This document shows, piece by piece, positions 7,101-53,530 of a DNA stretch of 64,000 bases (positions are counted from its first letter, which is position 1; each line of letters starts with the position of its first letter). The notes beneath the pieces were generated by a model, which was given only the letters and a program-made list of their open reading frames with translations, did no database searches and was not told the DNA's origin. Origin of the DNA: Heliocidaris erythrogramma (taxonomy: Eukaryota; Echinodermata; Echinoidea; Camarodonta; Echinometridae); contig CM046859.1 in the NCBI GenBank assembly GCA_025617745.1, forward strand, positions 30,214,744-30,278,743, in the 5' to 3' direction. A program made the position numbers and the translations under genes.

Positions 7101-8384
7101 AAGTTTTTTAATGTTCGTCTAGTACCTACAGTGCAACTTTGATATTGATAATTATCTAAATCATAAACAGTAATTGAAGTCCTGCATTCAAAGATACACT
7201 GTAACAGTGTGGTTTATCATTGTGCTTTGATAAAGACCACGGTCCCTTGACACGAAGGTTTGCAATCAATTACAAATTTGAAACAATGATTCTGATTGGT
7301 TAATGGTCAACCTTGTGCACAATATATCCATGCAACGATGATCTTGACTGGTCATTGCCATTTTGCGAGTGATTGCAAACCTTTGTGTTACGGTGCCCAG
7401 CTGTGTTTAAAGACCACTTTTCTTGTCTTCCCTATGCAGTCTTTATATACAGGTGTAAGGTTTGTTGATGTCTGTATTGTTTTGTTTCTCTTCTTACTTC
7501 AGTTACAGTGTACCAGTCACCTGAAAAAATAATTTGTGTACAGCTAGAAAGTGTAAAATCAACCTCAAAGAACTTTATCTGGCATTCTATTGGTCATCAG
7601 TTAAGGAGTATGAAGGAAATAAAGGATAACATGAAAATGCTCCCGCGGAACCAAACTCCGAGTTTGGTTCCTGTGTGTCGAGTATTCTACACTCAAGTCG
7701 CTTTTACGTTTATAGAGAGTGTAAATTAAAATAGCAATATCTCTTTATTTGAAGCCCATATTTTGAATATAGTAAACAACATGGACCTCTAAGATACAGA
7801 CCACCTGTCCATAAAGAACACTGCTATTGTCTGTTTGAGCGGTCTTTATAATACGGGTTTCACTGTATTTTGATGCCTTGTGTTGTCTGTTTTTTGGGTG
7901 ATTGGTACCCGTTAATGGCTACAGCATTAAGAATGCTGATTCTCATTCACACCAGTAGTGAGGGGTGTTTCACAAAGAGTTAAGTTTGATTAACAGTCGC
8001 ACTTAAATTCCTAGTTGTGTGCGGTATATGACACATCACCGCATTGGTCAGATCATGCTCGGGGGACGCGCACTATTGGGTAATCTACCAATGAGATTAC
8101 GCGTTTAATACCGTATGCGCGTTGGCACTTACGCATGACTTTAAGTCAAATTTAACTCTTTGTGAAACACCCTCCTGGACTAACATTTACAAATAGACCA
8201 CCTGTCTACAAAGACCAATACGGTATTGTCTGTTTGAACGGTCTTTACGTACAGGTTTCACTTTATTTTCATGTCTTGTTTTGTCTGTTTTTTTGTTCTT
8301 CTTCCTTCAGGTAATGTCTATAATATCAAGAACCTACGCAAAGACGAGGCCAAGCTCACATTCTTCCAACTGAAGAGCACATGA
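1..8384 (+). CDS. CENPC: CENP-C (centromere protein C), 5'-partial, 8 exons
   Basis: Join of 1-1138, 2233-2316, 3177-3428, 5196-5384, 5715-5843, 6325-6438, 6914-7066 and 8311-8384, about 710 residues with the N terminus outside the window. CENP-C is the inner-kinetochore protein that binds CENP-A nucleosomes and links them to the rest of the kinetochore. Seen here: about 380 residues rich in Lys, Glu, Ser and Arg and probably disordered; a CENP-C motif in exon 4 (basic RRTRRQRVRP followed by LEYW); then a C-terminal Mif2/CENP-C cupin domain over exons 7-8 (HDTMVFNVVRGKI, NGDWFFVPKG, LTFFQLK). Each junction has GT/AG and keeps frame. All seven introns are phase 1, and the internal exons are multiples of three. 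The CENP-C motif and cupin together make the family call firm. The Mis12-binding N terminus is not in the window. Confidence 0.95.
2233..2316 (+). CDS. CENPC: CENP-C exon
   Basis: 84 nt, preceded by ..TATCAAG and followed by GTAAGG. Encodes 28 residues (VKKKRVNRREQ..., then Ser/Asp-rich). Phase 1 at both ends, so it joins the flanking exons in frame. Short and low complexity; supported by splice sites and frame rather than by homology. Confidence 0.8.
2391..2566. mobile_element. Tc1/mariner-pogo-like MITE in CENP-C intron
   Basis: About 175 bp bounded by TA on both sides. Inverted ends are CAGTCAAACCTG...at left and ...ACAGGTTTCACTG at right, and the interior pairs AAAGACCAC with GGTCTTTATA. 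No coding capacity. Related degraded copies occur at about 2975-3133, 7783-7868 and 8190-8272. Confidence 0.7.
2610..2700. repeat. (GA)n-rich microsatellite
   Basis: A run of GAGAGA with GGGA variants, on the plus strand purine only for most of its length. Simple sequence within a CENP-C intron. Confidence 0.8.
2975..3133. mobile_element. Degraded copy of the 2391-2566 MITE
   Basis: Shares the phrases GACCACCTG, TTGTCTCCCTTGAG and a terminal TTTTACTGTA with the element at 2391-2566. Ends are diverged. It lies just upstream of the CENP-C exon at 3177. Confidence 0.5.
3177..3428 (+). CDS. CENPC: CENP-C exon
   Basis: 252 nt between a CTACAG acceptor and a GTAAGT donor, phase 1 at both ends. 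Encodes 84 residues, Ser/Thr/Gly-rich then basic, ending KYSILFTEIPLQKAFI. Ser-Pro and Thr-Pro pairs could be phosphosites. No domain recognised. Confidence 0.85.
3830..4434. mobile_element. Long-hairpin MITE of about 600 bp in CENP-C intron
   Basis: The two halves are inverted copies. Left CCGGCCTGAAAATAATATTA pairs with right AATATTAATTTCAGGC-type sequence. Further in, AATTTCATCGAAATC pairs with GATTTCGATGAAATTT, and GATGATGTCACGTCCCCACT pairs with AGTGGGGATATGACATCATC. The right end GAGTACCCCTTTAA resembles the TTAA-flanked end of a piggyBac-type MITE. The left end is degraded. A direct repeat TTAAATGTAATGTG lies at both edges. Confidence 0.65.
5196..5384 (+). CDS. CENPC: CENP-C exon carrying the CENP-C motif
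   Basis: 189 nt after a pyrimidine-rich CTCCCTGCAG acceptor, with a GTAAGT donor. Encodes the conserved basic-aromatic CENP-C motif: RRTRRQRVRP then LEYWRNERPIYE. In known CENP-C the Arg contacts the H2A/H2B acidic patch and the Tyr-Trp pair contacts the CENP-A tail. All these residues are present. Phase 1 at both ends. Confidence 0.95.
5715..5843 (+). CDS. CENPC: CENP-C exon
   Basis: 129 nt between a TTTTAG acceptor and a GTGGGT donor, phase 1 at both ends. Encodes 43 residues rich in Thr, Pro and Val (GHLPVTPTNISIHATPP...), a linker between the CENP-C motif and the cupin. Confidence 0.8.
6325..6438 (+). CDS. CENPC: CENP-C exon
   Basis: 114 nt between a CTTTAG acceptor and a GTAAAA donor, phase 1 at both ends. 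Encodes DAVATSKMLKFTGPSGLPAK then a short helix-like stretch. This is the region just before the cupin. Confidence 0.85.
6525..6775. repeat. Dispersed repeat with AAAC-type tail in CENP-C intron
   Basis: Starts near AGAAAGACCGTCAAAGGCGG and ends in ACAAACAAAG/AAACAAAC simple sequence after TTCACCCGTTCTCTAGTTAT. The oligo-AAAC tail suggests a LINE/SINE 3' end. I do not recognise the family. Confidence 0.4.
6914..7066 (+). CDS. CENPC: CENP-C exon, cupin domain part 1
   Basis: 153 nt between a CATGCAG acceptor and a GTGAAT donor, phase 1 at both ends. Encodes the first strands of the Mif2/CENP-C cupin: GVLTVRP, then HDTMVFNVVRGKIAMTLHE and NGDWFFVPKG. This fold mediates CENP-C homodimerisation. 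Confidence 0.95.
7500..7785. repeat. Dispersed repeat, copy 1 (pair with 16255-16578)
   Basis: Matches 16255-16578 in the same orientation over about 290 bp, sharing AATAATTTGTGTACAG, AAGGAGTATGAA, a CGGAACC block and TTTGAAGC(C/T)CATATTT. It contains an inner hairpin around CCAAACTCCGAGTTTGG. No coding potential. Lies in the last CENP-C intron. Confidence 0.6.
7783..8272. repeat. Two partial pogo-like MITE copies flanking the hairpin MITE
   Basis: At 7783-7868 and 8190-8272 the phrases AGACCACCTGTC, TTGTCTGTTTGA(G/A)CGGTC and GGTTTCACT recur, as in the element at 2391-2566. The two pieces flank the MITE at 7961-8175 and may be one element split by it. Confidence 0.45.
7961..8175. mobile_element. 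MITE with 24-bp inverted ends
   Basis: Left GGTGTTTCACAAAGAGTTAA and right TTAACTCTTTGTGAAACACC are exact inverted repeats; the similarity continues a further few bases inward. About 215 bp and non-coding, in the last CENP-C intron. Confidence 0.7.
8311..8384 (+). CDS. CENPC: CENP-C last coding exon, cupin domain part 2 and stop
   Basis: Starts after CTTCCTTCAG and encodes GNVYNIKNLRKDEAKLTFFQ then LKST and TGA at 8382-8384. This completes the cupin barrel and ends where the family normally ends, a few residues after the last strand. Confidence 0.95.
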
Positions 8385-19423: not shown

Positions 19424-19755
19424 TTAGAGGATTGAGCAGATAGCACACTTAGTGACTGCCACCTGTTGTGCTTGCCTTGCCCCTCCTCCTGCCCCTCCTC
19501 CACCCAGGCTGTTCCTCCCGAGGCTGCTCTGGGTGCGTAGAGACTCTCCTCTGCTGGGGCTACGCAAGCTCTGCGGGGTCGTGGAGTCGGCCGACCGGGA
19601 GTTGTTGGTGGTGATGATCTTCACGGCTTGGTCTTCGATCTTAACGGCTGGTTTGACCTTGATGGGCTTGGTGTAACGGGTGATTTGATGGATTACATCC
19701 TGGTACTTCATCTCCTTGTCGGCCTTGACCCCTGACCCTCCGTGCCCTCCGACCC
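19424..19755 (-). CDS. Exon 20: Gly/Ser-rich tail and CaaX-like C terminus
   Basis: Starts after TTTTGTAG and runs to TAA at 19424-19426, 110 residues. A basic stretch (YTKPIKVKPAVKIEDQAVKI) is followed by Ser/Arg and poly-Gly, then TKCAICSIL. CSIL at the very C terminus fits a CaaX box, and Leu in the last place favours geranylgeranyl transferase I. A second Cys three residues upstream could be acylated. Confidence 0.85.
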
Positions 19756-22700
19756 CTACAAAAAATACACGGAGACCACGTTAATAAAAAATAGGTTGAA
19801 CAAAAAGGGTCAATCACATATATAAACCGTGTTTATTGCTTCCTTGTGTTGTACGCACAAAAAGAGCTATATCGCCCGTGCAATATTTCTCACTAATTTG
19901 CTCAATAGATATGATATGAGCAATCAACGGCCAATCTTATGCGTGCAGTTTTTACCGATCAGATACAACGTGGACTGCTCCTCATAAACTTACCAACAAA
20001 GGTAACATAGATGAGTTGAGACACGATGAGGGCCATGCCACCTGGGGGCGGCCACGGGACCTTCCTGAAGATGATGGGGATGATAGGCTTCTTGAGTTGA
20101 TCAGCAAGGCTCAACTCTCGATTACAGTTCTCAGAAATAATGTACTGTGGTGTGATGCAGCACACAAACACCTGTATCCATGAGTGCAGATGATGATGAT
20201 AATAATAATAGTAATAATAACAATGATCTGGATTTATATAGAACTTATGATAAATGACTCTAATTGCTTTACAAAAAGAATATTACCTCTGCTATGGGAT
20301 TCAGTTATACTCACATTAGGTGCACAATCTCCACTCCCCGGGAAATATTCCCATCACATGATCACTGTGGCGTATGGCAAATTTCAATCACAGTGGCTTT
20401 TAGCATCCCACCGAGTGTCTATTTATCTCCTTGCAATGAAGTGGCAAGTGTAGATTAAGGCCAGAGTTCAAACCCAAGACCTTTGCATTCCGAATCAAAC
20501 CATTCAACTATATCACTATGTAATAAAACATAATGATGCAGTCATGCTTAATCTTCGTGTTGGGAATGCCCTCATAGATCTTATTGTAGAATTGTCCTTC
20601 CCCTCCAAAGAGTAAAATAAACATGCATAAAGATTCAAAGTAAAAGTCTTCATAACCAATTCAAACCCACGTTAACAAAACAAAGCCATGCTTACCTTTG
20701 CGCTGTGAATGCCTTCATAGATCTTGTTGTAGAGCTGGTCTCCCCCTCCCATCTGACCGATGTCCATCCAGCAAGGGAACCCAGTCCGTTCCAAGTAGTC
20801 CCTCAAGTTCCTCACGTCCTCCTGGATACCCCAGTTATAGCTGATGAACACTGTGGGGGGATCTTTGTTCACATCTGCAATTAAGAAGTAAAGACTTGTC
20901 ATAATACTATCTGTATCTGCATCTGTCCAGTAAATTGCTGGTTAGTCACATTCGTGGATAAGGTTCTGTGTGTGTGTTTGTAATTGGGTTTTTACTGACG
21001 TGTATCAATCAGATATGATTATTTACGTCTGGGACCGACCTTTAACGTCACCATCCGAAAGACGTGACTCAGTCTCGAACCTGGGTCCGCTGAATCAGTT
21101 TATAACTTCCACTGGTAGCTGGATTACAGACGCACGCCACAATGCCCAGTTAGACACTTAAAGATAAAGTTGAGTTCTGGTCATGCGATTACATTGTGAA
21201 AGAGCTGTCTAAAAACATTTGGAAAAGGTTGAGCCTATCTAGATAAGAATTAGTGTACTCTGTGAGGTTTTAGAATCATTTAAAATGATAAGCACACTTC
21301 AGCTATTTCTATTTCAAATATGAGAGCATTTGAAGAGCAATCCTTTTTCAGGAGACATTTCTACAATGATCTTCTTCCAAACTGACATAAAAAGAATGAA
21401 AAAGATAAATCATTTGTCACCTTTCCCCGAACTCAACCTTCTCTTTAAATTCTGAAGGGGGCTTGTGACTTCAGACTGCTTACATCTCCCATATTTAACG
21501 TCGAATGTCAAGTTTGAGAGGATTTTCTAAAGATTGAAAGCATCAGAAGGTTTTCCAGAGAATGAAAGCACCAGAAAGTTTCCCTGTTCAAAACTCTGAT
21601 GAAACATTGGTACGAGTCAGATTTTTTCCATCAAAATCTTATCTCTACCATTCCTAACATTCTATAGGAATTTTGTAGATAGTAATTTTGGGTAATATAT
21701 TTTGGAGCAGATATCTCTGTGGGATTAAATTTACAGATCATTCATATTTTTGTGGTCCTATATAAAAGGATAACTTCAAGTATTATTCAACAATTCGCAG
21801 AAATTTCCCTTATTGTGTACACGTGTACATAATTATGGTCATATGTTGGATTGGATGAAAATGAGAACTTGACCGACCTTGACCTTTCTGGATGACCTCT
21901 ATGACATCATCCCTCTTCATCTGCTCCAGGTACGAGAGGAGCATTTCAACAGACAGGGCAGTGTTGCCGCTGGTTTGGAACCAGTCGATTAAGATGCACA
22001 AGGCTGGGTTGGGTTCATCCTCCGTCAGCTTCTGTATCTTGGCCTTCTTGTAACCTGGACACAGTAAAGGGCAGCAGATCAGTAATGATACACTTTAAAT
22101 GGCTTTTATCAGTTACTAAATTTAGACAGAAAGGGAAGATATTTGGTATTTTTATCATTGTTACTTTTATTATTTCTATTATAATCATCATTACCATCAT
22201 ACAATTATCAGTTGGTCCACTAGCTGAAAGGTCTATTGTTTGCAATTGCATGATATATAAAACCCCCCCAGCAACTTGAAAACTTTATATCCCGATAGAT
22301 ATGACATACCGAGCCTGTAGGCTAAGGAGAGCCAGTCTGCATTCTCTGTGCCCGAGTTGAGAAGCTTGGCTGCTACACGCACCCATGAAGGGACATCCTC
22401 CTCCTTTATGCTTTCTGCTGTACTCACTTTGACAGGCAAGGGGGCTGCGTATGTAACAATGAAATGAATTTTATTAAAGATGTTGAGTTCTGGTTATGCA
22501 AATTCAATGTGAAAGAAACCGTCTCTTAGTTACCACTCGGGGAAAATGTTATGTAGTAGATAAAACTTTTTTTTCTCTTTTCTTTCTGTGTTCATTCAAT
22601 GAAAATATAATCACAATATTTACAAACAATTAGTAGATAAAACTTGGTGTATGCTGTGATGTTTGGAATCATTGGTAATGACGTGGTGGCAGCGGTGGGA

Positions 22701-25700
22701 TACATACCCATGCCATTGAAATGACAGATGCCTAAAACCACTTATGTCCTGTCAAACCAAATGGATTGTCTCACCAGGTACAGCTGCTTTATCTGAAGGA
22801 AACCACTTCTGAAAGACATTGGTTCGGATCCGCCTCGACTCACACATGACGACCTTCTTGCTGAGGCATTCTTCAAGGCTAAGGAAGTGAAGACAGGCAT
22901 CCTCCGGGCAAGCTTGCTTCCCATGGGCCAGGCAGCGGCGGTTGCAGGGGCAGGCGACCACCAGCTGGTAACGGACTCTCTTCATGCACAGCTGCCGAAG
23001 GTCAGCCAAGGTGCTGTCCAAAAAGTGACGGACCTGCGAAAGGAAACAACACCATGTACATGTACATGTACCCCAACAAATTAAAGTTAGTGCATTGCAG
23101 ATTTCTCTGACCAGTTTCACCAGCATAAAAGCTAAACCCATAGCAGACTGAGGCAACTCAACTCCCATTTCAATGTCTCATACTATTTGGGAGCATTTTA
23201 ACTAGACACATGTACAGGTACAAAGTATTTCTGCAGGAGATTTGTTAGATTTTCATCTTTATAAATTCCTAGTGTCAATAATCTCATGGTGACTCAACGA
23301 AAATAGGTACAGACTGTGCAGAAATTGTATTTGCTCTTTCTGCCCATGCATTTGGAATACTTCTTAATGTTCTTAATTACAATAATTGTAACATGCCAAT
23401 TAACCACGAAATGTAGAATTTGTCCTCAATAAATTAGCAGAAACCATACCTTGGCACATGCCTCCTGACTGGCCTGCTCCAGTTTAGCTGCATCTGTTCT
23501 CTGCTCTTCAGCATCATAGATGTCAACACTCAATACCATGACCTATGATATCAAGAACATTCTATGTAAATACTTCAGCAAACTCTGATGTTCCCTGTTT
23601 AAGTACCGTATTTTCCCGCGTAAAGGCCACATCCCAACTTTGACAACTCATTTGGGAGAAAAAAAAACAGTATGTGCAGAGTTTCCCCACTTTGAAAGTT
23701 TAAGTACGCACAAAACTACATGTATCAAACTGTGAATGCAACTTGAAAACTGAGGCACAATCACAAACAAAATTGGAAAGGAAATGTTTCCACTACTCAA
23801 AAAAAAAATTGTTTTTAAGATATCTTACATGGGTGCATATTCCATCAAAAGTTCATTGTTTGTACATGATTTTCAGGAAAAATTTAGTGTTGATTAAATT
23901 TTGATAATTCCAAAACATCACATTGTCATGAACTCACAATTCAGGAAAAAAACTTCTAGACACTTTCTTTTACCATGATATTGCTCGACCAATAGTCTAA
24001 ATAAGCTTTAAGATTAAAGCAACTTGTTTCATGCCTCACAATATCTACCTTTATTCTGGCTAGTCTAGCAGGTGCCATTTCTAGAAGGGCATCGTGTTCC
24101 GTGTTGAGAAAGAAGCGGGTTTGTCTGAAGAAGAGCCGTGGCTCCCTGCCTCCTTGCTCCTGGCTCCAGCGTACCGCTCTGGTCAAAATGCGATGGAACA
24201 GACCATCTAGCAGAAAGCAAGTACAATGCATATTTTATGATCAATTCTATGAAGTCCTTTGAAAGACAATTATTCTGTGCCACTAAGATATTGAGTCATG
24301 GTCATGAATGAACTTTCAAGTGACAAATTTTGACTAAGATATATACTTTTTTTCATTGTTAATTTGGGTATAAATATATCCCATGGGAATAAACTTCCCA
24401 ATGATGATACCTGCTTGATGAAGAAAGAAAAAATCTTAGCCATTTGTGGCCTTAACCCTTTCATTTCCTTATATTTTTTAGAGCTCTGAATCAAAAGTTA
24501 TTGAGCCAAACAAAAAAATGTGGTCAATTGTCTTGAATTGTCATCATGGCTGTAGCCAAGGTTACAGTAGTAGTTTGCAGGCACCTTTAACACCCGGCCC
24601 CTGGGACAGACACATTTGTGTATGTTTGCAATAGGTGCGTATAGCCATTATTATGATGATTACTACATCATTTTGAAAATTGATAAAACAGTGCCTGTCT
24701 CGCTGCCATACTCACCTGGGAGAAAGCCATTGAAAGTAATGTAGAAGGCCACAGATGCATTGGTTTCAGCCATGAGGTCCTCTTGGTCGGGACATTCCCG
24801 TAATCTTGAAGGCACATAGTAACTTCTCTCTGCTCCAACTCCTGGTGACTGTTCATCAACACCAGGCAGCTAAAACAAAAGAAGGTGACAACAATAATGT
24901 CAGTCTCCAACAACAATTGCTGTGCAGTCATTGTCTAAAATTAGTTGAATTCCTAACTTCAATCCTGGACCAAATACTGTAGCTTACCTTTAACTGAACC
25001 TTAAACCTAACCTACAACCCAAACGCAACCAACACTGTATGCCCAAATCCTGCATCTTTAACAAAATATAGCCAGGAGCAAATGTTATATCACAGTACTC
25101 CCAACATCCGGGTTCTCCCCTAGATGTAACTTTACTGGGGTTTGGAGCTCAGCAACCTGAAAATTACTATGGTTGCCCAAAAAACAATCAAATTTTGCTG
25201 GTGAACAACAGCAGATTTACCAAAATTGTACTTGAAACGGTAACAATGAAGGTTTAGAGATATCTTTTAAATTGCCACCTGACAACTGAGCCACACAGAG
25301 ACTTTCACATTGTTTAACAAGCTTTGGTCAATGGCACACGGGCAAAGTACTGCTAATAACCCTGTATCACATTTACCTCACTGGGTGTCTGCCTCTCACA
25401 CAAGAGATCAAACTTCTCCATGAGTCCAACAAGAACTTCCTTCTGGTCTATCACATCATGCCACATATGGTCCAGGAGCTGGTCTTTTAGGATCCCATAC
25501 TCATCTAGCTTAGTCCAGGCATCCAGGAGCAGTGACCACTAGCAAAAAGAAAAAAAACAATAAAGTAAATCTTGAAACCTGGTGATGAAATTGCATTTCA
25601 ATAGAAACTGACTTAAATTAATTCTGAATTCTATATAACTATAGATGTCTTGTTTGACCAGCAAAATATTAACTAACAGTAACATGCACAAGGAAAACCA

Positions 25701-28700
25701 TATGTGTTCTGAAGCATGGTAGGTACTATATGTATTTTTATTTCCTTACCTTGCTTTGCTTATTTTGAAGTTATATTTATAAATACATTTTATACCAAAA
25801 TCATGTGGCAGATAATTTTTTGTAGTCTTAAATATTAAGTGTAGGTTTTATTTGATTTCTGTAAGAATCAACTTTCCGTTCCTACTGGTACTAAAGATTA
25901 GCCTACCGTACCTTTTAAAATAAAAGATATGAAAAAAACAACTTATGAACAGCTATCTAAAAGTCCTGCAGAACAAGCCCCATATTCCTGTATGGATAAG
26001 CCACAATCGATCAATTAAGGATCACAAAATTTTAGTTTTCCTGTTTTACAGATTGGACACCATTATACCTTATCATCGATGTCCTTGACCGTGATGACCC
26101 TCCTGAAGATGTCTACCAGCCACTGTGGACTCAGGATGACTGTGTTCCTGAGGGAGGTGTCCGAGGCCCCTGGACCCCCATAGTAGATGATCAGCCCTAG
26201 GTCATGGTAGAACTGAAGCATGGTCTGAAGACCAGCTTCAGAACTGATGCCCACAGTGGCTGCTACCTCACTCATCTGTGTAGCACAAGAAAAACACAAA
26301 TTAAAAGTATTTTGTATACACTGCCTCACGAGACTCTGGTTAAATTTATGAACGTAAGGTGACTGCAATAGATCTATTTCCTGATGTACTTATGTACTAA
26401 AAATTTCATGAATTACCGAAGAAAATACTGTATCATACCTCGATCCCATATATATGTTGTATATTATTAAACATACATGTATACATATTTTTTAAAAACC
26501 CTATTCTTTCATCAACGAAGAAGTATATCGAAACATATACATGTACCTTTGATAATCTTTATTATAAAAAAAACCCCCCAAACTGCTGACTAGGGAACTC
26601 AAGAGTAGTCAATTGTGTTTGGTCAATTATAATTGTAAAAATTCATATATGCACATGTATACAATTTATTTTATCCTTTATCAGATTTTCCTGACAATTT
26701 TAATTTCTCTTATTTTTCTGCTTCCACTGAAACCAAATTATCAGAGTGGGCTTCTCCTTCAACATAATTTTCTAGCAACTGTTTAATTTTTCAAAATTTC
26801 CTAACTTACATTGTCTAATGACATGTAGTTGATACCCTGAGAAACCAGATCAGCTACCCGCTGCTGGAACCGAAGCCATCTCAGGGGTATATGCTCTCCC
26901 ATGTAGGGCTCCTTGCTGGCAACTTCTTCCACGTGGTTACGAAGCTTTGCAACCTGACATAGCACCAATAAGAATAGGAAAAATTGAATTTAATCTCCTA
27001 AAATATCCACACAGAATAATTATATAATGTTCTAATGTAATCTCTTACTTTTTGAGTCTGTCTTTTGCTGTAGCTGTTTGTCTTCTCTTTTCAAATCCGT
27101 AATTTTGTAAGCGCTGTGGTACTTTCTGTTTTTAGCACTCTTAAATATGCAATATTATTCTTCTTCTTCTTCTTATTATTATTATATTATTATAACTGCT
27201 TACCGTGGATAGAACAAAGACAGTAACCATGGCTAGGCTTATGTCATTTTATTTTCATGAGGCATTTTCAAAGGCGGTTTACTACATCTACATGTACATC
27301 ATGTCGGAGCACGGCTTATAGAATTAGATGCTATTACCTGTTCATCGTCTCCCTCGTCAATGTTGTTCTCTACTGCATAGAAATTGGGTATGATGTGAGG
27401 TAGATACGGCTTACCCACGAGATTCTGCCGTATCCGTATAAACTTCTCTTCAACCTATATGAAACAATGGAGACAAATGTACATGTACCTCAGCCACTTT
27501 AGCATACTTGGATTTAAACCAGAATTCACACGCAGAATAAACTCAGAGGAAAAGTTTTAACGAGACAGTTCTTCTCAAGTTGAGATCACGAAGATTGATC
27601 CCCTTTAAAGTCATCTGTTTTAATTGTTGAGACCATGCAGCAACACATGGGCTTAGAATATAGAACAAAACAAGTTTGGTAGGGATACAAAAGTTGAACA
27701 AGTATAAGTGCTGAGTGACAAGCATAGAAAAATGAGAGAAATTGAGCCTGTTGAACAGTCCCGACCATGTGTCCAGCAATAAAACACATGGTTTAAGTCA
27801 ATGTGATTTCCAGCGAGTTTATGTTAATTTGTTCCCATCGTGCTGAATTAAACTGGGTCCAGTTTCATAAATCTTGTTTAATATCAATAACAAGTTGCAA
27901 TACCAGTTATAAGCTACTGAAATCCTTGAATCTGATTGGCTGAGAGCAATTTGTCATAGAAATGGAGCAGTTGTTATAGATAATAAGTTTTATGAAACAG
28001 GGTCCTGATCTACTAAACGATAAATAATTCAGAATTCCTGAATCGCTTCTCTATCAAAATGCAATATAATCGTCAGAAAATCAAAACTAAGTTTTAAATG
28101 GAGATTGAATGTGTTTATGACTCACCATCCTGGCTTGTTCCACCAGATCTGAGCTGAGGCTAGCCCTGTGGGTCCCCACCACAAAGATAGGAGGTGAGAG
28201 CATGGTATTATCTAGGGCACTGGTCCTATTCTCTGCCGTGTGGGCATGGATTGAACGCATCCAGAAGTCCATGAAATCCAGATTAGTGAACTCACTCTCA
28301 GCATATTCCACCTGGATGATATAGCGAGTACAAAGAATATCATTCCTTTTTTTTTTATCCCTCAATCCTTGACCTCTTGTGCAATACAAATTAATTAATT
28401 AATGACTTTCTGTCTTTGACAGATTTCACAGATTAACTATTTCATCACTAAAATTTTAGTACTTTGTACTGCAGAATTAAATTTGATGCAACCAACTTTG
28501 GTGTATTAAAAAAATTGAAAATTAATGAATATGTATTTTCTGAACCCATTGACATTACTTAAAATGGTGCATTACCTTAAAATCCTTTAGCCTTTATCAT
28601 ATGTTATTTTAATAATGTTTCAAAATTTGCCTGGATGTACAACAAACAAATACTACCACATGACATGAATGTACATTTGTCAGATATACTTTATATATAT

Positions 28701-31700
28701 TAATTTGTAATTAATTTGATAACACACTTTATGAAAAAATCTGCGATTCAGCTCACAGGCAGCAAATGATTTACATGAAGAAACCATTTTGAATGAATGA
28801 ATGAATTTATTTCATAATACCGCAGAAATCTGCCATGAACATTACAATTGAAAAGTATACATCGTTCAAAATTTCTAATACAGATATCATAATCAATAAC
28901 AATTCCAATGTACATGTAGCCAAAAGTGAAAAATTTACACTAGTCAATAGAAAAAAGCAGTATCATGGGAGAACCTAAGGAAAAGCACAGCTTGTTAAAA
29001 CAGGTTCCCCAATAACAGAGAGAATTACGAAATACATGTATGTAATTATGTATACATATACATATTATATAGCAGTAAAGGGACGAGACAAGACATGTGT
29101 GTAAAAGGAAAAAAAAACAAACAAAAAACACACACACACTAATTTTAAATCAATAATTAGTTATAACTAGATAGAAGTAAACTAGCCCTCACCGAATCAT
29201 CTCCTCTTCGTATTTGAGTTTGCGCTGGAGCGTCAAGATCATGAGTTAAATTGAAGACTATAATATAAACTGCTCTAGATGAAAGAAAGACCTGAAAACA
29301 AGAAGAACACAAATCATAGTGTTATTAGCAGAACTGAGTGTAGTCATATGTATCCTTTCATCTATGGCAATTTGATCTTACATCCTTTCAACTCTTGAAT
29401 GCTGATCAGTTTATCTTTTTATGCTTATAGGCAATTATAGTACTCAGCCAAGCTTGATTATAACTGTATCTAGTTCACAAAGCATTGCATTAACAAGATA
29501 TTTTCTGAAATCTGAAATGTTTTGCACTTTCATAACCTTCTTACTTTTAATTGACCCCTCACTTTCATTACCATGAATTCTAATCGGTTCATCTTTCACG
29601 TCTAAGCATATATTTACCTGAGCAAAGTTTGGTTATAATGGCACCTATCATTCCAAATTTATTGCAATAATGCTACACACATATTTTCTGATATTCTTTT
29701 TACATTTCTATGACCCTGTAATCTACATAAGGTCAGGTACGATAAGTATTAAGGTCACTGAAATGTTCCTGACCTGATGGGTAGTGTAGTAGACAGCTTG
29801 TCCAGCAAAGTCCCATATACTCAAGATGATTTTCTTGGATTCGTCCTGATCCACCGCCTTGTCTTCAAGGAGATCCGTCTTGCCGTCTTCTGCCTCTTTG
29901 AGGAATCTCTCCACTTGGGAGGTCACAAGGTTAAATGTCTCTTCGTCCAGCGACTTGACCAGATCGTCAAGCTGTTCTGCCTCAGCCTCAGTCTGCTCCT
30001 GATTATTGGGAAAATGATGATAATTGATGATAATAACAATAATAACAACGATGATGATGATGACAATATTAACTGCTTCCTTGAGGAGCCTCTCAATCTG
30101 GGAGGTCACAAAGTTAAAGGACTCTTCGTTCAGTGACTTGACCAGATCGTCAAGCTGTTCTGCCTCAGCCTCAGTCTGCTCCCGATTATTGGGAAAATAA
30201 TAATAAATGATGATAATAACAATAACAACGACGAAGATGATGATGACAATATCAACAGCTTCCTTGAGGAGCCTCTCAATCTGGGAGGTCACAAAGTTAA
30301 AGGACTCTCTGTTCAGTGACTTGGCCAGATCCTCAAGCTTGACTGCACTTTAATGAAATTTAATAAAAATTTTCTGCACAATAACTTCTCTAAATGCCTT
30401 GTATCACGTCTGTTGTAACATAAGCATTTTGAGGCAAATCTGAGATATTGCACATCATGGAAATACTGAAAAGGCAAAAATTATTTCTGGTGACTGGGTG
30501 GCATATCACATATACATGTACATCTAGCCTACACACAATTAATGGCTCTACCTGGTCTTCACTAGCATTATCACTGCTGCTGTCTGTGCCACTGGTGATC
30601 CATACATCGTCCTTAGAATCCTCCTTGCTGTGCGAGGAGTCCTCCTGCTGGATGACGGGACTTGAACCCTTGACCTTCTCTTCCTGGGCCCTCTTCTTCT
30701 TCTTCTTCCACAGGACCTTGGCAATATTGAGGCCCAGGGCCTGTGTGTAACTGTCCTGGAGACTTGATGAATTATCTGCAAGGTTCAGGAGATATTGGTC
30801 AGGTACATTTGGTGTTCATTATACAGTATTTGAGGAACAAATTTGACTTTGTCAACTGTCACATTTCTATCACATTTCTATTATCAAAGGTAATGCCTTC
30901 AATGGCTTATTTTAAATTTCATAACACATTTTAAGAATGGGCTGAGCTGTTTTATGCTAAAAAAAAATTTGAAAAGTGCTGTGTACAAACAACTGAGGCA
31001 GCCTTGGAAGTTAAAGGGATACGCCACCAGGTGACCGTGGGGAAAGTCAGGATTGCGTAAGCCCTATTCACTGGTACACAAAGTTTGTGCTTTGAACGTG
31101 TCCATCGGAATCTGAATCTTGCACGAGAGCTCAAGCTCAGGTGAAGTGTGCATTTTGCACGGCGACGAGTCTGTCCGGATCGAGTTTCCGCCCCGCGGGG
31201 CAACGGCATGATCAGGTAACGATCACGGTGCCCTCTCGCGGAATAAAAACGTCCACAATCTGCGGTTGAGTATCCCTTTAAAACCGTTTGGCAGATAACA
31301 TATATATGTACATGAAACTTTGAAATTCCCAAAGTTTCGTTAGATTCTGTACGAATTCCTTTTCCGACATCAGTGGAACTCAAGATCAAATTTAGGGAGT
31401 TAAACATACCAACAGTATTTTTGGACGTCTCTTGTTCCTCTCCTCCTTGCACTTTCCAACCTGTAGCATTCTGGATGTTGATTTCACAAGCATCCATTGT
31501 GTCAATCCCATCTGTGCTTACTTCTCCGGAGTTGTAACTAGAAAATAAGTTAACAAAATAAACAATTCATTCATTCATAATCTACTGTAATAATATATAT
31601 ATATATATATATGACAGAAAATGCCTTGACTTTAGCAGCGTATGGCATACTCCATTTCTACAAAGGTAGCTACATGTACTTGCCCACAGCCCCCAGGCGC

Positions 31701-33132
31701 TCCCGCTTCGTACGAGACTGAAGTACAAGTCTACAAACTTGACACAATTTAAAAAATATTTTCAAGAAGCATATTCATTAGATGTTCATGTTAAATGCAT
31801 TACATAACCATGACCCCTATGGATGCACCCCAATTTAATGTATACTCAGGGTTTCTTATGTGTATTGGATCCTGTTAATGTTAAGCCCTGCAGTATGTAG
31901 GTTTAAATGTAGTCCTAGACTAGCTTTGGCTATTACCCTTGGCCAGTAAGTGACCTCTTCAGACTGGTCTTGCCAACACGGTCCTGGCCCACCAGCATGA
32001 GTCTGGTCCTGAAGATGGGCTTGGTCCCATTTGTGGCTGCCTGCTTGAAGGCCTCCATCGCATCCGGACCACGGGATAGGATCTCTGCCGGAGCGCCATC
32101 TTGTGCTGAAAATGGGTGACAGAAAAATGAGATACAATGAACAAATCTCACAAATTTACTCTAAAAGTGGTCTTTAAGTTGTGGTAATTAAAGAAAATAA
32201 AGTCTTCCAGAGTCAAACTAAGTTTGCATTGATATATTCAAAACTAAATATAAATGATTTACTATTTTTTTCATCAAACAATTTTGTTATTACAGCTGAG
32301 TACTGACCGATGAAAATAGAAAAAAAATCAAGCTAGTTGTCCCACGCACTTGTAGAACATGTTGTCTCATATAATGCACATTGTGCAAAGGTGAATTGTG
32401 CTTTTCGTTGAATGAGACTTCCAGGAGGTTTTTGTTAGTTTTGTTCATACCTTTTGCTGGTTGAAACAATCCTATCTAAGGGTTGATAATTGATAATTGT
32501 AATATGTATTGTGGGGACCTTGCTTCTTGACATCAATATGGAAGTACATGTACATGTAAATGCCGGGAAGTATTTCACTGTCATTTAGTTCTGCATAAAT
32601 CTACAAAATTAGGTTGCTCTAGCTGTGTATCGAAATTGGATACCTTACCTTCTCCTTTGATAGCTATACTAGTTGTCGTGCCATAAACGTCTAGCATAAC
32701 CCAGACAGGCTTCTTCACATCAATGTCCCCAGGTGCAATTTTGTCTGTGGATATTGTCTCATTGTTCACAAAAGAATATACTTCTCCATCTTTTGTCAAA
32801 TAATATGAAAGTACATAGCCCTTTTGATTGTGCTTGGTGTTCAACGCCCTCGCCCAGTAGCCAGGCTTTGAGGAGAGGTTGGGCATCACATACGGAGGGA
32901 GGTTTTCAGAAGGAATGGTCCCTGGGGATATGTTGGTGAAGCCATAGCGTATGGATCCTGACCAGGTCCCACCGACGTCTCTGAGCTCCACCGAAACCTT
33001 CTCCCCGATCGGAAGCGGCTCCGCACCGAACACAATCCCATTGTTGAAGCCACTAGAGCGGGTCGCAGTACAGTCATCCTCCAATGTAATATTCCTGCCA
33101 TGGCAAGTAGCGCATAAAGTCAAAAGCTGCAT
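19424..33132 (-). CDS. NHR-Roc-COR-Death-TIR protein (ROCO-type signalling protein), 20 exons
   Basis: Reading right to left I join 20 exons with GT/AG sites and unbroken frame into about 1,267 residues (numbered from the Met at 33132). Order: Neuralized homology repeat, about 10-155; Roc GTPase with P-loop GQDRVGKTS (201-209), switch II DFAGQ (398-402) and GTHR in the NKxD place (489-492); COR, about 545-870; Cys-rich block (CPCNRRC...CPEDAC), about 870-935; Death, about 950-1035; TIR, about 1040-1157; Gly/Ser-rich tail ending CSIL, a CaaX-like box. By family logic NHR binds a protein target, Roc-COR acts as a nucleotide switch and dimeriser, and Death and TIR recruit signalling partners or, for TIR, cleave NAD. 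The complete architecture is one I do not recall from vertebrates. The start codon is uncertain because 5' exons may lie further right. The function as an immune sensor or adaptor is inferred. Confidence 0.88.
19994..20171 (-). CDS. Exon 19: TIR domain part 2
   Basis: 178 nt between ATACAG and GTTG|GTAAGT, phase 0 in and phase 1 out. Encodes VFVCCITPQYIISENCNREL then KKPIIPIIF. The Glu in CNREL sits where catalytic TIR NADases carry their glutamate. Confidence 0.93.
20193..20515 (-). mobile_element. tRNA-derived SINE, degraded copy in TIR intron
   Basis: Shares TTTATATAGAACTTAT, CTCCCCGGGAAATATTCC and AAGTGTAGATTAAGG phrases and the (TAA)n 3' tail with the SINEs at 16638 and 40585. The tRNA head at the right is degraded (TTCAAACCCAAGACC). 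Confidence 0.6.
20536..20612 (-). pseudogene. Dead duplicate of the 3' part of TIR exon 18
   Basis: On the minus strand this reads FYNKIYEGIPNTK, a close copy of LYNKIYEGIHSAK at the end of exon 18, and the similarity continues into the intron (AAGCATGAC versus AAGCATGGC). The donor GT of exon 18 is AT here, so the copy cannot splice normally. It lies in the intron between the two TIR exons. Confidence 0.75.
20696..20874 (-). CDS. Exon 18: TIR domain part 1
   Basis: 179 nt between ATTGCAG and GCAAAG|GTAAGC, phase 1 in and phase 0 out. Encodes TIR box 1 (PPTVFISYNW), LERTGFPCWMDIGQMGGGDQ and the helix ending IYEGIHSAK. Confidence 0.95.
20966..21149 (-). mobile_element. SINE with 7SL/Alu-like head, copy 1
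   Basis: On the minus strand: TGGGCATTGTGGCGTGCGTC, TGTAATCCAGCTACC, then GGACCCAGGTTCGAGACTGA, which line up in order with Alu/7SL (GGGCGCGGTGGC, TGTAATCCCAGCTACT, GCCCAGGAGTTCGAGACC). The non-7SL body ends in a (CA)n tail. A second copy at 42529-42703 has the same end. The Pol III A/B boxes are implied by these matches. Confidence 0.6.
21884..22054 (-). CDS. Exon 17: Death domain part 2
   Basis: 171 nt between GTCCAG and CAGAAAG|GTCAAG, phase 1 at both ends. Encodes helices 3-6: PALCILIDWFQTSGNTALSV then LLSYLEQMKRDDVIEVI, matching the Death-domain WxxxxGxxATxxxLxxxL tail. Confidence 0.9.
22310..22444 (-). CDS. Exon 16: Death domain part 1
   Basis: 135 nt between TACGCAG and CTCG|GTATGT, phase 1 at both ends. 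Encodes VPSWVRVAAKLLNSGTENAD then WLSLAYRLG, helices 1-2 of a Death fold (VAxxLxxxWxxLAxxLG pattern). Confidence 0.88.
22775..23033 (-). CDS. Exon 15: Cys-rich post-COR segment
   Basis: 259 nt between TTTCGCAG and CCTG|GTGAGA, phase 0 in and phase 1 out. Encodes a block with six or more Cys/His (ACPCNRRCLAHGKQACPEDA then CLHFLSLEECLSKKVVMC). It may bind a metal; this is inferred from spacing only. Confidence 0.88.
23450..23542 (-). CDS. Exon 14: COR-B helix
   Basis: 93 nt between ATCATAG and GCCAAG|GTATGG, phase 0 at both ends. Encodes VMVLSVDIYDAEEQRTDAAK, a polar helix leading to the Cys-rich block. Confidence 0.85.
24049..24206 (-). CDS. Exon 13: COR-B
   Basis: 158 nt between TCTGCTAG and ATAAAG|GTAGAT, phase 1 in and phase 0 out. 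Encodes DGLFHRILTRAVRWSQEQGG then LFFRQTRFFLN, typical of the COR-B sheet. Confidence 0.9.
24716..24869 (-). CDS. Exon 12: COR-B start
   Basis: 154 nt between GTTTTAG and CTCCCAG|GTGAGT, phase 0 in and phase 1 out. Encodes RSYYVPSRLRECPD, the YxVPSxL motif of COR-B, then FYITFNGFLP. Confidence 0.92.
25377..25538 (-). CDS. Exon 11: COR middle
   Basis: 162 nt between TTGCTAG and AGTGAG|GTAAAT, phase 0 at both ends. Encodes YGILKDQLLDHMWHDVI then LVGLMEKFDLLCE, conserved COR helices. Confidence 0.93.
26069..26275 (-). CDS. Exon 10: COR winged-helix part
   Basis: 207 nt between CTACACAG and GATAAG|GTATAA, phase 0 at both ends. Encodes LQFYHDLGLIIYYGGPG and VILSPQWLVDIFRRVITVKD. 'FxHDLGxIIxY' and 'LxPQWLxDxFR' are classic COR phrases. 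Confidence 0.95.
26810..26953 (-). CDS. Exon 9: COR start
   Basis: 144 nt between ATGTCAG and GACAAT|GTAAGT, phase 0 at both ends. Encodes GEHIPLRWLRFQQRVADLVS, matching the conserved IPxxWLxF entry of COR. Confidence 0.9.
27338..27454 (-). CDS. Exon 8: end of Roc / Roc-COR link
   Basis: 117 nt between CATATAG and GAACAG|GTAATA, phase 0 at both ends. Encodes GKPYLPHIIPNFYAVENN, the strand and acidic turn that closes Roc (the PxFYAVEN text recurs in this family). Confidence 0.88.
27853..28005. mobile_element. MITE in Roc intron
   Basis: Ends AGTTTCATAAAT...TTTTATGAAACAGGGTCC are imperfect inverted repeats. About 150 bp, non-coding. Confidence 0.5.
28126..28311 (-). CDS. Exon 7: Roc G4 region
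   Basis: 186 nt between ATCCAG and AGGATG|GTGAGT, phase 0 at both ends. Encodes FMDFWMRSIHAHT and PPIFVVGTHRASL. GTHR sits where Ras-like proteins have NKxD; His in this place is usual for ROCO proteins. Confidence 0.9.
28795..28990 (-). mobile_element. LINE 3'-end fragment in Roc intron
   Basis: Minus-strand 3' tail made of (ATTC)n, with upstream TATGAAATAAATTC and GGCAGATTTCTGCGG. Tetranucleotide tails of this kind are typical of CR1/L2-type LINEs. No ORF left. Confidence 0.5.
29193..29291 (-). CDS. Exon 6: Roc beta strand after switch II
   Basis: 99 nt between TTTTCAG and GATTCG|GTGAGG, phase 0 at both ends. Encodes VFLSSRAVYIIVFNLTHDL, the typical strand after switch II in ROCO GTPases, then a polar linker. 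Confidence 0.9.
29774..29998 (-). CDS. Exon 5: Roc switch II
   Basis: 225 nt between AATAATCAG and CATCAG|GTCAGG, phase 0 at both ends. Encodes an acidic helix (EQTEAEAEQLDDLVKSL), then KKIILSIWDFAGQAVYYTTH with the DxxGQ switch II. Two extra copies of its first part lie upstream in transcription order (see 29999-30350). Confidence 0.9.
29999..30350 (-). repeat. Two extra tandem copies of the start of exon 5
   Basis: At about 30065-30180 and 30253-30350 the minus strand repeats the coding text of exon 5 (QLDDLVKSLNEESFNFVTSQ) with a period of about 182 bp. In the middle copy the acceptor AATCAG has become AATCGG. The frame is open through all three copies and the intervening ATC-rich sequence, so either dead exons or one enlarged exon with a hydrophobic insert is possible. 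Confidence 0.8.
30552..30775 (-). CDS. Exon 4: insertion within Roc, basic and Ser-rich
   Basis: 224 nt between CTTGCAG and ACCAG|GTAGAG, ends in phase 0. Encodes YTQALGLNIAKVLWKKKKRA then an acidic/Ser-rich stretch ending TSGTDSSSDNASEDQ. The KKKKR run could be a localisation or lipid-binding signal; that is a guess. Confidence 0.75.
31015..31277. mobile_element. piggyBac-like MITE, copy 2
   Basis: 263 bp bounded by TTAA at 31011-31014 and 31278-31281, with ends AGGGATAC...GTATCCCT. It is the inverse orientation of the copy at 9633-9925 and shares its GC-rich interior. Lies in the intron between exons 3 and 4 of the TIR gene. Confidence 0.8.
31410..31537 (-). CDS. Exon 3: insertion within Roc
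   Basis: 128 nt between TTTTCTAG and GTTG|GTATGT, phase 2 in and phase 1 out. Encodes 43 polar residues (MDACEINIQNATGWKVQGGE in the middle). It lies between P-loop and switch II, where most Roc domains have only a short loop. Confidence 0.75.
31591..31612. repeat. (TA)n microsatellite
   Basis: Uninterrupted AT dinucleotides in an intron of the TIR gene. Confidence 0.85.
31937..32105 (-). CDS. Exon 2: Roc P-loop
   Basis: 169 nt between CATTTTCAG and CCAAGG|GTAATA. Encodes a short pre-helix and the Walker A strand-loop-helix LMLVGQDRVGKTSLKRSLTG, matching GxxxxGK(S/T). Phase 1 in, phase 2 out. Confidence 0.92.
32649..33132 (-). CDS. Exon 1 (provisional): Neuralized homology repeat
   Basis: Encodes about 161 residues: CHGRNITLEDDC, GIVFGAEPLPIGEKVSVEL, GGTWSGSIRYGFT, PGYWARAL and PVWVMLDVYG, a clear NHR beta-sandwich. 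The donor is GAAG|GTAAGG, phase 1. The start at 33132 is the only in-frame ATG just before the domain. The frame stays open to a stop near 33202, so an upstream acceptor and further 5' exons are possible. Confidence 0.85.
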
Positions 33133-37014: not shown

Positions 37015-37086
37015 TGTCTCCGCCGGGAATCGAACCGGGGTCTTTGGCTTAGAACGCCAATGCCTTAACCACAAGACCACGGAGAC
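37015..37086 (-). tRNA. trnR-UCU: tRNA-Arg (anticodon UCU)
   Basis: 72 nt on the minus strand that fold as a full cloverleaf. The acceptor GTCTCCG/CGGAGAC is perfect, the D stem is GTCT/AGGC, the anticodon stem TTGGC/GCCAA is perfect with loop GTTCTAA (anticodon TCT, reads AGA), and the T-loop is TTCGATT. It has a discriminator A followed at once by TTTTTT, a Pol III terminator. The one blemish is a C:C mismatch in the middle of the T stem (CCCGG/CCCGG). No intron. It could be a slightly decayed copy. Confidence 0.8.
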
Positions 37087-43345: not shown

Positions 43346-43399
43346 ATGCCTTCTTGTGAAGCCATCAACTGTACCGATCGACTTCTTTCTTTCATTTAA
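43346..43399 (+). pseudogene. Possible THAP-like N-terminal fragment in foldback arm
   Basis: ATG followed by PSCEAINCTDR and a stop at 43397. The Met-Pro-x-Cys...Cys-x-x-Arg start recalls the first residues of THAP zinc fingers, found in P-type transposases. The same text is present inverted in the right arm near 44755. Very short, so only a suggestion. Confidence 0.3.
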
Positions 43400-44710
43400 T
43401 ATATCTTCTTCAAAGAAATCCATAAGGAAAGCGAAGGGAATAGATAGAAGGAAAAAACAAGGAAATATAAAGAAGGGGGAGAGGATAGATGGAAGGAGAA
43501 ACAAGGAAATACATAAAGAAAGGGGATGATGGAAGGAAAAACGAATAAATCCATAAGGAAAGAGAAGAGGATAGATGGGAGGAAAAGCAAAGAAATATAT
43601 AGGGAAAGGGGGGAGGAACGCTGAAAATAAAAACAAAGACATACATAAGGATAGAGAAGAGCATAGATGGAAGGAAAAGGTAAGGAAATATAAAGAAGCG
43701 GGAGGATAGGTTGAAGGAAAAACAAAGCAATACGTAAAGAAAGGGGAGACGATGATAGATGGAAGGAAAAACAAAGAAATCCATAAGGAAAGAGAAGGGG
43801 GTAGATCAAATGAAAAACACAAAGAAATACAGTATGGAAAGGAGACGAGGAAAGATTAAAGAAAAATAAAGAAATGCATAAGGAAAGAGAAGAGGATATG
43901 AAATGGGAAAACAAAGAAATACAAAAGGAAAGAGAAGAGGATAGATGGAAGAAAAAACAAAGAAATACATCAAGAAAGGGGGGAGGATATAGATGAAAGG
44001 AAAAACAGAAAAATTCATATGGAAAGAGGAGATGATATATGGAAGGAAAAACAAAGAAATATATAAGGAAACTGGAGGGGATAGTTGGATGGAAAAACGA
44101 AGAAATACAAAAAGAAAGGGGAGAGGATATAGAAGAGGAAAAGCAAAAAAAAAAAAAAAAAAGGAAAGGTAAAGGATAGATGAAAGGAAAACAAAAAAAA
44201 AAATACATTAAATTCTATATCCTCTGTTCTTTCCTTATGTATTTCTTTGTTTCTCCTCCAATCTATCCTCTTCTCTTTCCTTATGGATTTCTTTGTTTTT
44301 CCTTCCATCTATCATCGTCTCCCCTTTCTTTATGTATTGCTTTGTTTTTCCTTCAATCTATCCTCCCGCTTCTTTATATTTCCTTGCTTTTTCCTTCTAT
44401 CTATTCTCTTCGCTTTCCGATTATGTATTTCTTTGTTTTTCCTTCCATCTATGCTCTTCTCTATCCTTATGTATGTCTTTGTTTTTATTTTCATCGTTCC
44501 TCCCCCCTTTCCCTATATATTTCTTTGTTTTTCCTCCCATCTATCCTCTTCTCTTTCCTTATGGATTTATTCGTTTTTCCTTCCATCATCCCCTTTCTTT
44601 ATGTATTTCCTTGTTTCTCCTTCCATCTATCCTCTCCCCCTTCTTTATATTTCCTTGTTTTTTCCTTCTATCTATTCTCTTCGCTTTCCTTATGGATTTC
44701 TTTGAAGAAG
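43400..44710. repeat. Purine/pyrimidine minisatellite inside the foldback element
   Basis: Units built on GGAAGGAAAAACAAAGAAAT and ATAAGGAAAGAGAAGAGGAT on the left, and their complement on the right. The long open frames rich in Phe, Ser, Leu and Pro are by-products of the unit having no stop in those frames; I do not treat them as genes. Confidence 0.85.
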
Positions 44711-44857
44711 ATATATTAAATGAAAGAAAGAAGTCGATCGGTACAGTTGATGGCTTCACAAGAAGGCATTTTGCTGACTATGTTTGAGTTCGATGCTCAC
44801 AGGCCAGTTTCTGTATGTACTTTTGTAGCGCCCACTGGCGGTAGATTTACAATAACT

Positions 44858-52390: not shown

Positions 52391-52491
52391 CCTCAAGGTT
52401 GCCAACGTGGCAACCAAGCTGAATTTACTTCAATACCCATCTAGAACACAAATCAACCAAAAAACCTTGTACTTAACAACTTTTCCAGGTC

Positions 52492-53530
52492 ATGTACATG
52501 GTATATGGTACCGTCTACTGGAGTATAGTGTCGTATCCTTCTGATGCAGGCAATCGTACCTGATATTTTCTTAACGATTTCTCTTACATGTAACGACCAC
52601 GTTAAGTATCTGTCCATTGTTACACCAAGGTATTTTATACTTTCAACCGAATCAAGTAAATTATTATTGTAATGAATAGAAATATCATCATTTTGCATTT
52701 TCCTCTTAGAACCAAAACGGATTGTTTTAGTTTTACTTGCATTTAGAAACATACCATTATAGTGTAGCCATTTGGCTATCTCAGAGAAATATTTTTGAAG
52801 GTTATGTTCACAAAGCTTGTAATCTTTCCCATGGTGAAATAATGCTGTGTCATCTGCATATAATGAGATCTTTGTCATAAAGTGTAGTTGTAGATTACAA
52901 ATACCATTCACAGACAGGCAAAAATCAATGGACCCAAAATGGATCCCTGTGGAATTCCCGATTTTACAGTGAGAAGGTTGCTCCTGGTTCCTTGTAAAAA
53001 ATACACATTGTTGTCTATAAGATAAATATGACTCGAACCAAGTTCAACCCCTCTAATATCATAAGATAACATTTTCTGGAGAATCAAGTGATGTGGTATA
53101 ACGTCAAAGGCCCTTTTCAGATCAAGAAAAACAGCACCAGTGACCAGGCCTTTTTCCATAATAGTATATATTAAACTATTTCTGTCAAGCATGTCAATGT
53201 TGATGTCCGGGCCTAAACCCCGATTGACGTTCACCTAACAAAGAATGTTTGTTAAATAGCCTTCTCAAATATCTTGGAGATTGTGAGGAGTACAGAAATA
53301 GGTCGATAGTTACTTCATTCCATTTTGTTTCCACCTTTGTGAATAGGGGTTACTTTGGCAACTTTGAATTCATGGGGTATACATCCTTTTGACAACGAAC
53401 AATTGAAAAGTACTGTTATGATTCTAGCTATGAATGGGGCAGCTAGTTTCAGTAGCTTTGGATGAAGATCATCAACACCAACTGCCTTTGAAATATTAAG
53501 TTTAAGTAGTTCTTTTAATATAAAACATTC
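52492..53530 (-). pseudogene. LINE-A reverse transcriptase, N-terminal and palm part
   Basis: RT motifs in order, minus strand: KVTPIHKGGNK, DLKRAFDVI, SGIPQGSILGPLIF, YADDTALF, KTKTIRFG, and KYLGVTMDRYLTW. There is a stop near 53236 and a frame change near 52910. The Y-A-D-D catalytic box is intact. Confidence 0.8.

Follow-up and report, generated by a model that had tools for sequence, protein, structure and literature searches.

Does one gene of the sea urchin Heliocidaris erythrogramma join an NHR domain, a Roc-COR module, a Death domain and a TIR domain in a single protein, and what would such a protein do? The question was raised by the window, a stretch of 64,000 nucleotides (GCA_025617745.1, contig CM046859.1), in which an earlier note had read a single gene of 20 phase-matched exons between 33132 and 19424, in the order NHR - Roc - COR - Cys-rich - Death - TIR. 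Exons were picked by hand and checked with a script. They give a single chain of 1269 aa from 20 exons on the minus strand with the same two ends, all 19 introns are GT-AG, and the phases are consistent across all exon joins. The domain order was confirmed by Pfam on the spliced chain and by orthologs with the same order. In this domain search, which the note had proposed, NHR, Roc, COR-A, Death and TIR_2 score above the cut-offs and COR-B is marginal.

Exon 1 (32649-33132; all coordinates on the minus strand) carries the start codon and the NHR domain (residues 10-158, 33105-32659), recognized by Pfam and by the match of an ortholog model to the 4kg0 fold. Roc begins in exon 2 (31937-32105) with the P-loop GQDRVGKT (31989-31966) and continues through exon 3 (31410-31537), with the presumed switch I region STDGID, exon 4 (30552-30775), an insertion whose residues 251-380 have a mean identity of 21%, exon 5 (29774-29998), with the end of the insertion and the G3 motif WDFAG (29815-29801), exon 6 (29193-29291), exon 7 (28126-28311), with the G4-like motif GTHR, and exon 8 (27338-27454), where it ends. 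These seven exons follow from the splice chain, with alignment to orthologs in exons 2 to 5 and 7 and Pfam in exon 2. By the splice chain and Pfam, COR-A starts in exon 9 (26810-26953), occupies exon 10 (26069-26275) and ends in exon 11 (25377-25538). COR-B lies in exon 12 (24716-24869; marginal Pfam and the Roc-COR fold in ortholog models) and exon 13 (24049-24206; splice chain and ortholog model fold), and exon 14 (23450-23542; splice chain) is its end or a linker. A Cys/His-rich module, CPC...C..H...C...C.HFL.L.ECL...V.C, is found in exon 15 (22775-23033; splice chain and ortholog alignment). The Death domain (22367-21885) is divided between exon 16 (22310-22444) and exon 17 (21878-22054), both backed by the splice chain and Pfam and the latter also by ortholog junction residues. 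The first part of the TIR domain, with CWMDIGQMGGGD, is in exon 18 (20696-20874; splice chain, Pfam, alignment), and the second part is in exon 19 (19994-20171; Pfam, alignment), where Glu1119 (20117-20115) falls at the place of the Glu that NADase TIRs conserve. Exon 20 (19424-19755; splice chain, alignment) holds the end of the TIR region (GVGGHGGSG), a low-complexity tail, the CaaX box CSIL (19438-19427) and the stop codon (19426-19424).

Exon 17 has two frame-keeping GT donors six bases apart, and the downstream one was used in the gene model; three urchin orthologs share the junction residues KGQDVNK. A 183-bp tandem repeat of 2.5 copies (29890-30339, minus strand) covers the last part of intron 4 and the first part of exon 5. 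It is open in frame through every copy, and the acceptor site is present in two copies, the AG being intact only in the last copy and replaced by CGG in the other. The in-frame copies were rejected as added coding sequence, since exon 4 is in phase with the last copy, the sole one with an acceptor AG; inclusion of repeat copies in some transcripts is possible.

Elsewhere in the window, a match to the C-terminal domain of CENP-C (Mif2) was found in an exon of a neighboring gene (6697-7101, plus strand), together with a tRNA gene (37015-37086, minus strand, 54 bits in Rfam), a reverse-transcriptase fragment that is apparently from a retrotransposon (52453-53043, minus strand), and two low-complexity repeat arrays (43396-44214 and 44180-44787) that resemble an inverted pair, with GATAAAC-type tandem repeats on either side.

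Two adjacent genes, one NHR-ROCO and one Death-TIR, could have been wrongly joined. Intron 17 (21877-20875) is the longest intron, and two Strongylocentrotus models (P0002, P0003) seem to run out of exon 18 without the remainder, both in line with such an error. Against it, the splice chain is phase-consistent, and full-length orthologs exist in many phyla, together with transcript-sized contigs that carry the whole frame, so that we find a false join hardly credible. The contigs are eight 'lgn' rows of 4.1-6.3 kb, each with an entire frame of 1.24-1.32 kaa and all five domains (P0027: 1273 aa in 4058 bases). They are most simply spliced RNA, since the urchin gene needs 13.7 kb and 20 exons for the same.

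The domain order is less new than the earlier note had implied: the databases contain a widespread bilaterian ortholog group, one member of which is named 'neuralized PATS1', and PMC5094078 and PMC9334734 mention the combination in passing. From a search of 5.8 billion proteins, 58 ortholog rows (P0001-P0058) were obtained, 45 of them listed with all five Pfam domains; the remaining 13 include several partial models. One alignment drew on 36 of these 58 rows. A profile search added two further orthologs, and with the Priapulus protein as query another four were obtained, including those of a tick and a sea spider. Going by row names, orthologs with the same order occur in nine phyla. The look into other echinoderms that had been proposed found them in sea urchins, sea stars, a brittle star and crinoids; the remaining named taxa are hemichordates and amphioxus among the other deuterostomes, bivalves, gastropods, cephalopods and a chiton among the molluscs, and annelids, nemerteans, a bdelloid rotifer, a priapulid, the tick and the sea spider. 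The nearest orthologs are those of Lytechinus pictus (84% identity over 100%), Strongylocentrotus (89% over 87%) and Diadema (70% over 100%), as expected of a sea urchin gene. The mitochondrial contig of the same genome has a COX1 with in-frame TGA; its frame stays open under codes 5, 9 and 13, and Asn for AAA, as in the echinoderm code 9, agrees with conserved COX1 positions. The 'neuralized PATS1' of Saccoglossus kowalevskii (51% identical, same domain order over the full length), LOC129271251 of L. pictus and LOC755988 of S. purpuratus represent this gene in other species. Of these, the first two have the same kind of CaaX end (CSIL, CAIL), and the S. purpuratus models are without the last part of the TIR and the tail.

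No vertebrate, insect or nematode was named among the ortholog rows. The evidence for absence from these groups and from tunicates is weak to moderate, because about 8000 top word-sharing candidates were scored per search and many rows carry no species name. Vertebrates and nematodes are represented in the database, since the profile search picked up LRRK1 of a vertebrate and an LRR-ROCO-TIR row of a nematode. A passage of PMC5094078 describes Strigamia and oyster proteins in which a 'neuralized' domain replaces the kinase and SH3 of an otherwise NG3-like architecture. Strigamia is not named among our matches, so some orthologs seem to have escaped the searches.

A maximum-likelihood tree of the Roc-COR-Cys core was built by a quick method from 710 columns and 47 rows; of 143 rows matched, 108 cover more than half of the core, and the 47 were picked from these by hand. 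A branch with an SH-aLRT of 97 separates all 21 NHR-ROCO rows from the 26 other ROCO rows. Urchins, sea stars, hemichordates and molluscs each cluster together. The deeper order is unlike that of the species, with hemichordates beside amphioxus and protostomes and the crinoid apart; several of these forks are weak, and the meeting of two long branches (P0085 and P0104) calls for caution. The domain architecture is old and already in the databases, and among the matches listed for open-licence PMC papers we found no study of the function, orthology or CaaX box of the NHR-ROCO gene. One figure legend of PMC9334734 names NHR, ROC, COR, Death and TIR for Aplysia, and PMC4104024 and PMC11378527, which survey ROCO architectures, do not use the word 'neuralized' in their main texts. 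The sole paper found there that names 'neuralized PATS1', and the sole source of an expression datum, tabulates it as reduced 759-fold in the focal response of clams to QPX (PMC4769524); being a strong down-regulation, this entry does not show induction on infection.

In the GTPase module, Roc has a Pfam E-value of 4.5e-15 in the spliced protein, with G1 and G3 intact, and COR follows directly (COR-A, E 2e-18); for its COR-B half, support comes from ortholog models whose folds align across Roc-COR. Structure comparisons were made with models of the orthologs P0002, without the second TIR half, and P0013, without the NHR. The Roc of an ortholog model aligns to LRRK2 and Rabs, and the PDB comparison of the Roc-COR model barely covers residues beyond 940. 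The P-loop Lys is kept in 58 of 58 ortholog rows, Gly206 in 56 of 58 and WDFxG in 60 of 60. The freshwater mussel orthologs P0039 and P0055 have a P-loop Gly-to-Glu change, and by this substitution their lineage possibly lost GTP binding. Since the tick ortholog also scores just under the Pfam cut-offs for Roc and COR-A, GTPase activity may not be universal.

The stretch from G1 to G3 is 188 residues long here and 155-238 in 59 of the 60 NHR-ROCO rows measured, the 60th giving 13, probably from a chance motif match (both motifs were located in 60 of 65 NHR-ROCO rows and in 75 of 94 others). Most bacterial and LRRK-type rows have about 37-66 residues, some up to 89, and the outliers are one vertebrate LRRK1 with 25 and one amoeba row with 182. 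The long stretch was rejected as a mark unique to the NHR-ROCO gene, as related ROCO rows of animals have it too, with about 127-265 residues in most and a few values on either side of this range. A motif search in 8 rows detected no conserved helix within the insertion.

Between COR and Death, the Cys/His-rich module of exon 15, which alone matches no Pfam family, keeps its outer Cys and His residues in each of the 8 representatives that were aligned, three of which lack the middle part. The CxC, the His of HFL and the last two Cys are kept even where orthologs have a shortened module. The preservation of the outer residues around a variable middle suggests a metal site.

No kinase, LRR, ankyrin, ARM, SAM or RING domain is among the nine Pfam families at E <= 0.1 in the spliced protein. 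We therefore rejected the UniRef label 'serine/threonine kinase' of several orthologs, which may stem from ROCO kinases, and, for want of a RING, a Neuralized-like E3 ligase. The NHR domain itself is clear (Pfam E 1e-34), and its fold in the ortholog model matches the Neuralized NHR1 structure 4kg0, the NHR1 of Drosophila Neuralized being the nearest. This likeness would fit a non-immune regulator of trafficking or development that works at membranes in the manner of Neuralized, with Death and TIR as oligomerisation modules. The presence of one locus in the own genome, among the matches listed, and an order kept across phyla, unlike fast-expanding immune receptors, also agree with such a role. 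However, a protein without a RING by Pfam should not ubiquitinate alone as Neuralized does, and Death-TIR pairs are otherwise known from immune and cell-death proteins. We consider such a regulator unlikely.

In the own genome, among the matches listed, the NHR exon of this gene is the only one that stands beside Roc-COR exons. Other NHR matches are on contigs C13, C14 and C16, and the Roc/COR matches of C14 are more than 11 Mb away. Four Death-TIR-TIR loci (L028-L035) were found on C2, C10 and at two places on C17. Their TIRs are of the same CW-D-QMGGGD type as the NHR-ROCO TIR, and the 15.5-20 kb around each contain no match to the Roc/COR part of the protein.

The point that is new here is the C-terminal end, KCAICSIL, where CSIL forms a CaaX box with Leu as X. 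The earlier note mentions neither this box, nor the long insertion in Roc, nor the likeness of the TIR to the enzymatic kind. The Cys is fourth from the end, a2 is aliphatic, X is permitted and a flexible linker stands ahead; in the P0013 model the tail (residues 1022-1076) has a pLDDT below 50. A C-x-x-L terminus is found in 53 of 60 orthologs, and in 56 of 64 with the four later rows (Mercenaria CTIL, Dreissena CSIL, tick CSLL, and a partial model from the sea spider). The seven others of the first 60 (P0002, P0003, P0044, P0049, P0051, P0056 and P0058) all stop before the tail. CTIL is the commonest tetrapeptide (13 of 53), and 47 of the 53 have a further Cys at the seventh position from the end. 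Mean identity to the window protein is 21% over the 76 residues ahead of the last eight (45 rows), against 60% over the last eight (51 rows), and the Cys content of the preceding tails is 0.29%. The pattern was noticed post hoc, by inspecting protein ends. Even so, 56 of 64 matching ends behind a divergent tail cannot be chance, and the box is the best-kept feature of that tail. Among 94 other homologs, six have a Cys fourth from the end, four of them rotifer Death-TIR rows, and none ends in C-x-x-L.

According to the parts of PMC1175975 consulted, GGT1 prefers Leu at X, and CVIL, CVLL, CAIL and CCIL are valid boxes that farnesyltransferase can use too. We predict that CSIL is prenylated. In the innate sensor OAS1 p46, a C-terminal CTIL box is required for antiviral action and places the protein on membranes (PMC7612834, in part); the enzyme is unrelated and the parallel concerns the mode of targeting only. 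Among the matches listed in open-licence PMC papers, no report of prenyl-type lipid anchoring of a TIR or ROCO protein was found.

At three of the four Death-TIR-TIR loci, open frames continuing the second TIR end in CLLL, CLLL and CLLQ, and at the fourth the frame reaches a stop without a CaaX-like end. Four of five rotifer Death-TIR rows end in CSIM, CSIM, CSLM and CSLM, and one has no CaaX end. The lipid box may thus belong to a wider Death-TIR class. Carried further, these ends would define an overlooked bilaterian-wide class of lipid-anchored Death-TIR proteins, absent or not found in vertebrates and insects, with the CaaX box common to NHR-ROCO and several Death-TIR-TIR proteins as its hallmark. 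The best-kept member would then be a GTPase-gated NAD+-cleaving enzyme, in which NHR would sense a membrane target, Roc-COR would drive assembly and TIR would destroy or convert NAD+. We put this forward as a tentative and rather doubtful proposal. Amphiura has a 2078-aa relative (P0059) with Death, TIR, macro, Roc and COR in one chain, where the TIR stands ahead of Roc.

What the TIR domain does is the next question. Its mean identity (61.6%, 50 rows) exceeds that of every other region compared, its CWMDxGQ is invariant in the 58 ortholog rows with letters, and the Glu at the NADase position (C-x-x-E) is present in 55 of the 57 rows with a letter. Both exceptions are the urchin models P0002 and P0003, which seemingly read past exon 18. 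A PDB search with a profile built from 8 TIRs gave 50 sequences at E <= 1, led by bacterial TIR proteins, including the NAD+ hydrolase AbTIR and the CRISPR-linked Cat1, then TRR-2 (a Toll-receptor-related TIR that scores in the NADase range) and SARM1, with weaker matches to IL-1RAcP, TLR1, TLR2 and TLR6. In Foldseek, the top 50 for the P0013 model, on which all our statements about the TIR fold rest, contain the TIRs of SARM1, C. elegans TIR-1, SPARTA TIR-APAZ and RPS4. Profile and model both favour a closer resemblance to the enzymatic NADase kind. Within our best explanation, an NAD+-consuming TIR is slightly the likelier case, only a little over even, because TRR-2 is not known to be an enzyme and the same Glu is also found in the non-enzymatic TIRs of TLRs.

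A scaffold of the MyD88 kind has to be weighed at this point, that is, a non-catalytic Death/TIR adaptor recruiting TLRs or IRAKs, with assembly regulated by Roc-COR and NHR and the lipid tail keeping it beside membrane receptors. As in MyD88, Death is directly followed by TIR, the Death domain has weak PDB matches to MyD88 and other Death proteins, and TLR and TRR-2 TIRs are among the profile matches. PMC9334734 also lists an Aplysia protein with Roc-COR among MyD88-like proteins. MyD88 is not known to have an NHR, Roc-COR, Cys module or lipid box. The urchin TIR is a TIR_2, nearer to NADase TIRs, which are the majority of the best profile and fold matches, and the Glu is conserved almost without exception. 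No MyD88 TIR is among the 50 PDB sequences at E <= 1, a sequence ranking that is weak evidence. We regard a scaffold as a serious possibility that falls short of being probable.

Other known proteins share parts of this design. LRRK1/2, MFHAS1 (MASL1) and DAPK1 are ROCO proteins too, but the urchin protein is without their kinase, LRR or ankyrin by Pfam and has instead the long G1-G3 stretch, Death-TIR and a CaaX tail. SARM1 and the bacterial and plant NADase TIRs have in common with it the TIR fold and the position of the conserved Glu, whereas it has no ARM or SAM by Pfam, and regulation would be via the GTPase module. Likewise with Roc-COR, Death and TIR in one chain, the cnidarian NG3 (kinase-SH3-Roc-COR-Death-TIR), as given in part of PMC5094078, has kinase and SH3 where the urchin protein has NHR.

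We suggest, with about an even chance of being right, that this is the sea urchin member of an old gene family of Bilateria whose product, a ROCO signalling protein anchored by a prenyl group, clusters Death and TIR domains at membranes under GTPase control. The Cys of CSIL would carry a geranylgeranyl group, the Cys three positions before it perhaps a palmitate, and the lipid tail would make the protein work on a membrane. The N-terminal NHR would bind a partner or ligand, and GTP/GDP exchange in Roc-COR would alter dimerisation, as proposed for other ROCO proteins, for which sections of PMC6337361 describe a membrane-linked dimer cycle. The dimer or oligomer would bring the Death and TIR domains together, and TIR would then act, with NAD+ consumption of the SARM1 kind slightly favoured and a scaffold otherwise, to start a defence or cell-death signal. 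Prenylation, NADase activity and an immune role are predictions of this scheme, and the layout of sensor (NHR), GTPase switch and effector that the earlier note proposed is plausible.

Bench work would best address the conserved CaaX box and the NADase-like TIR. Should the tail be prenylated, a lipid would keep a ROCO GTPase with a TIR on membranes, as is known of the human antiviral sensor OAS1 p46. The gene is tractable, being at one locus in its own genome among the matches listed and kept in clams, urchins, amphioxus and a tick, and offers a case in which to learn how a ROCO switch controls an effector that is not a kinase, which matters for LRRK2. It also lets one ask whether non-vertebrate animals run a GTPase-controlled TIR pathway.
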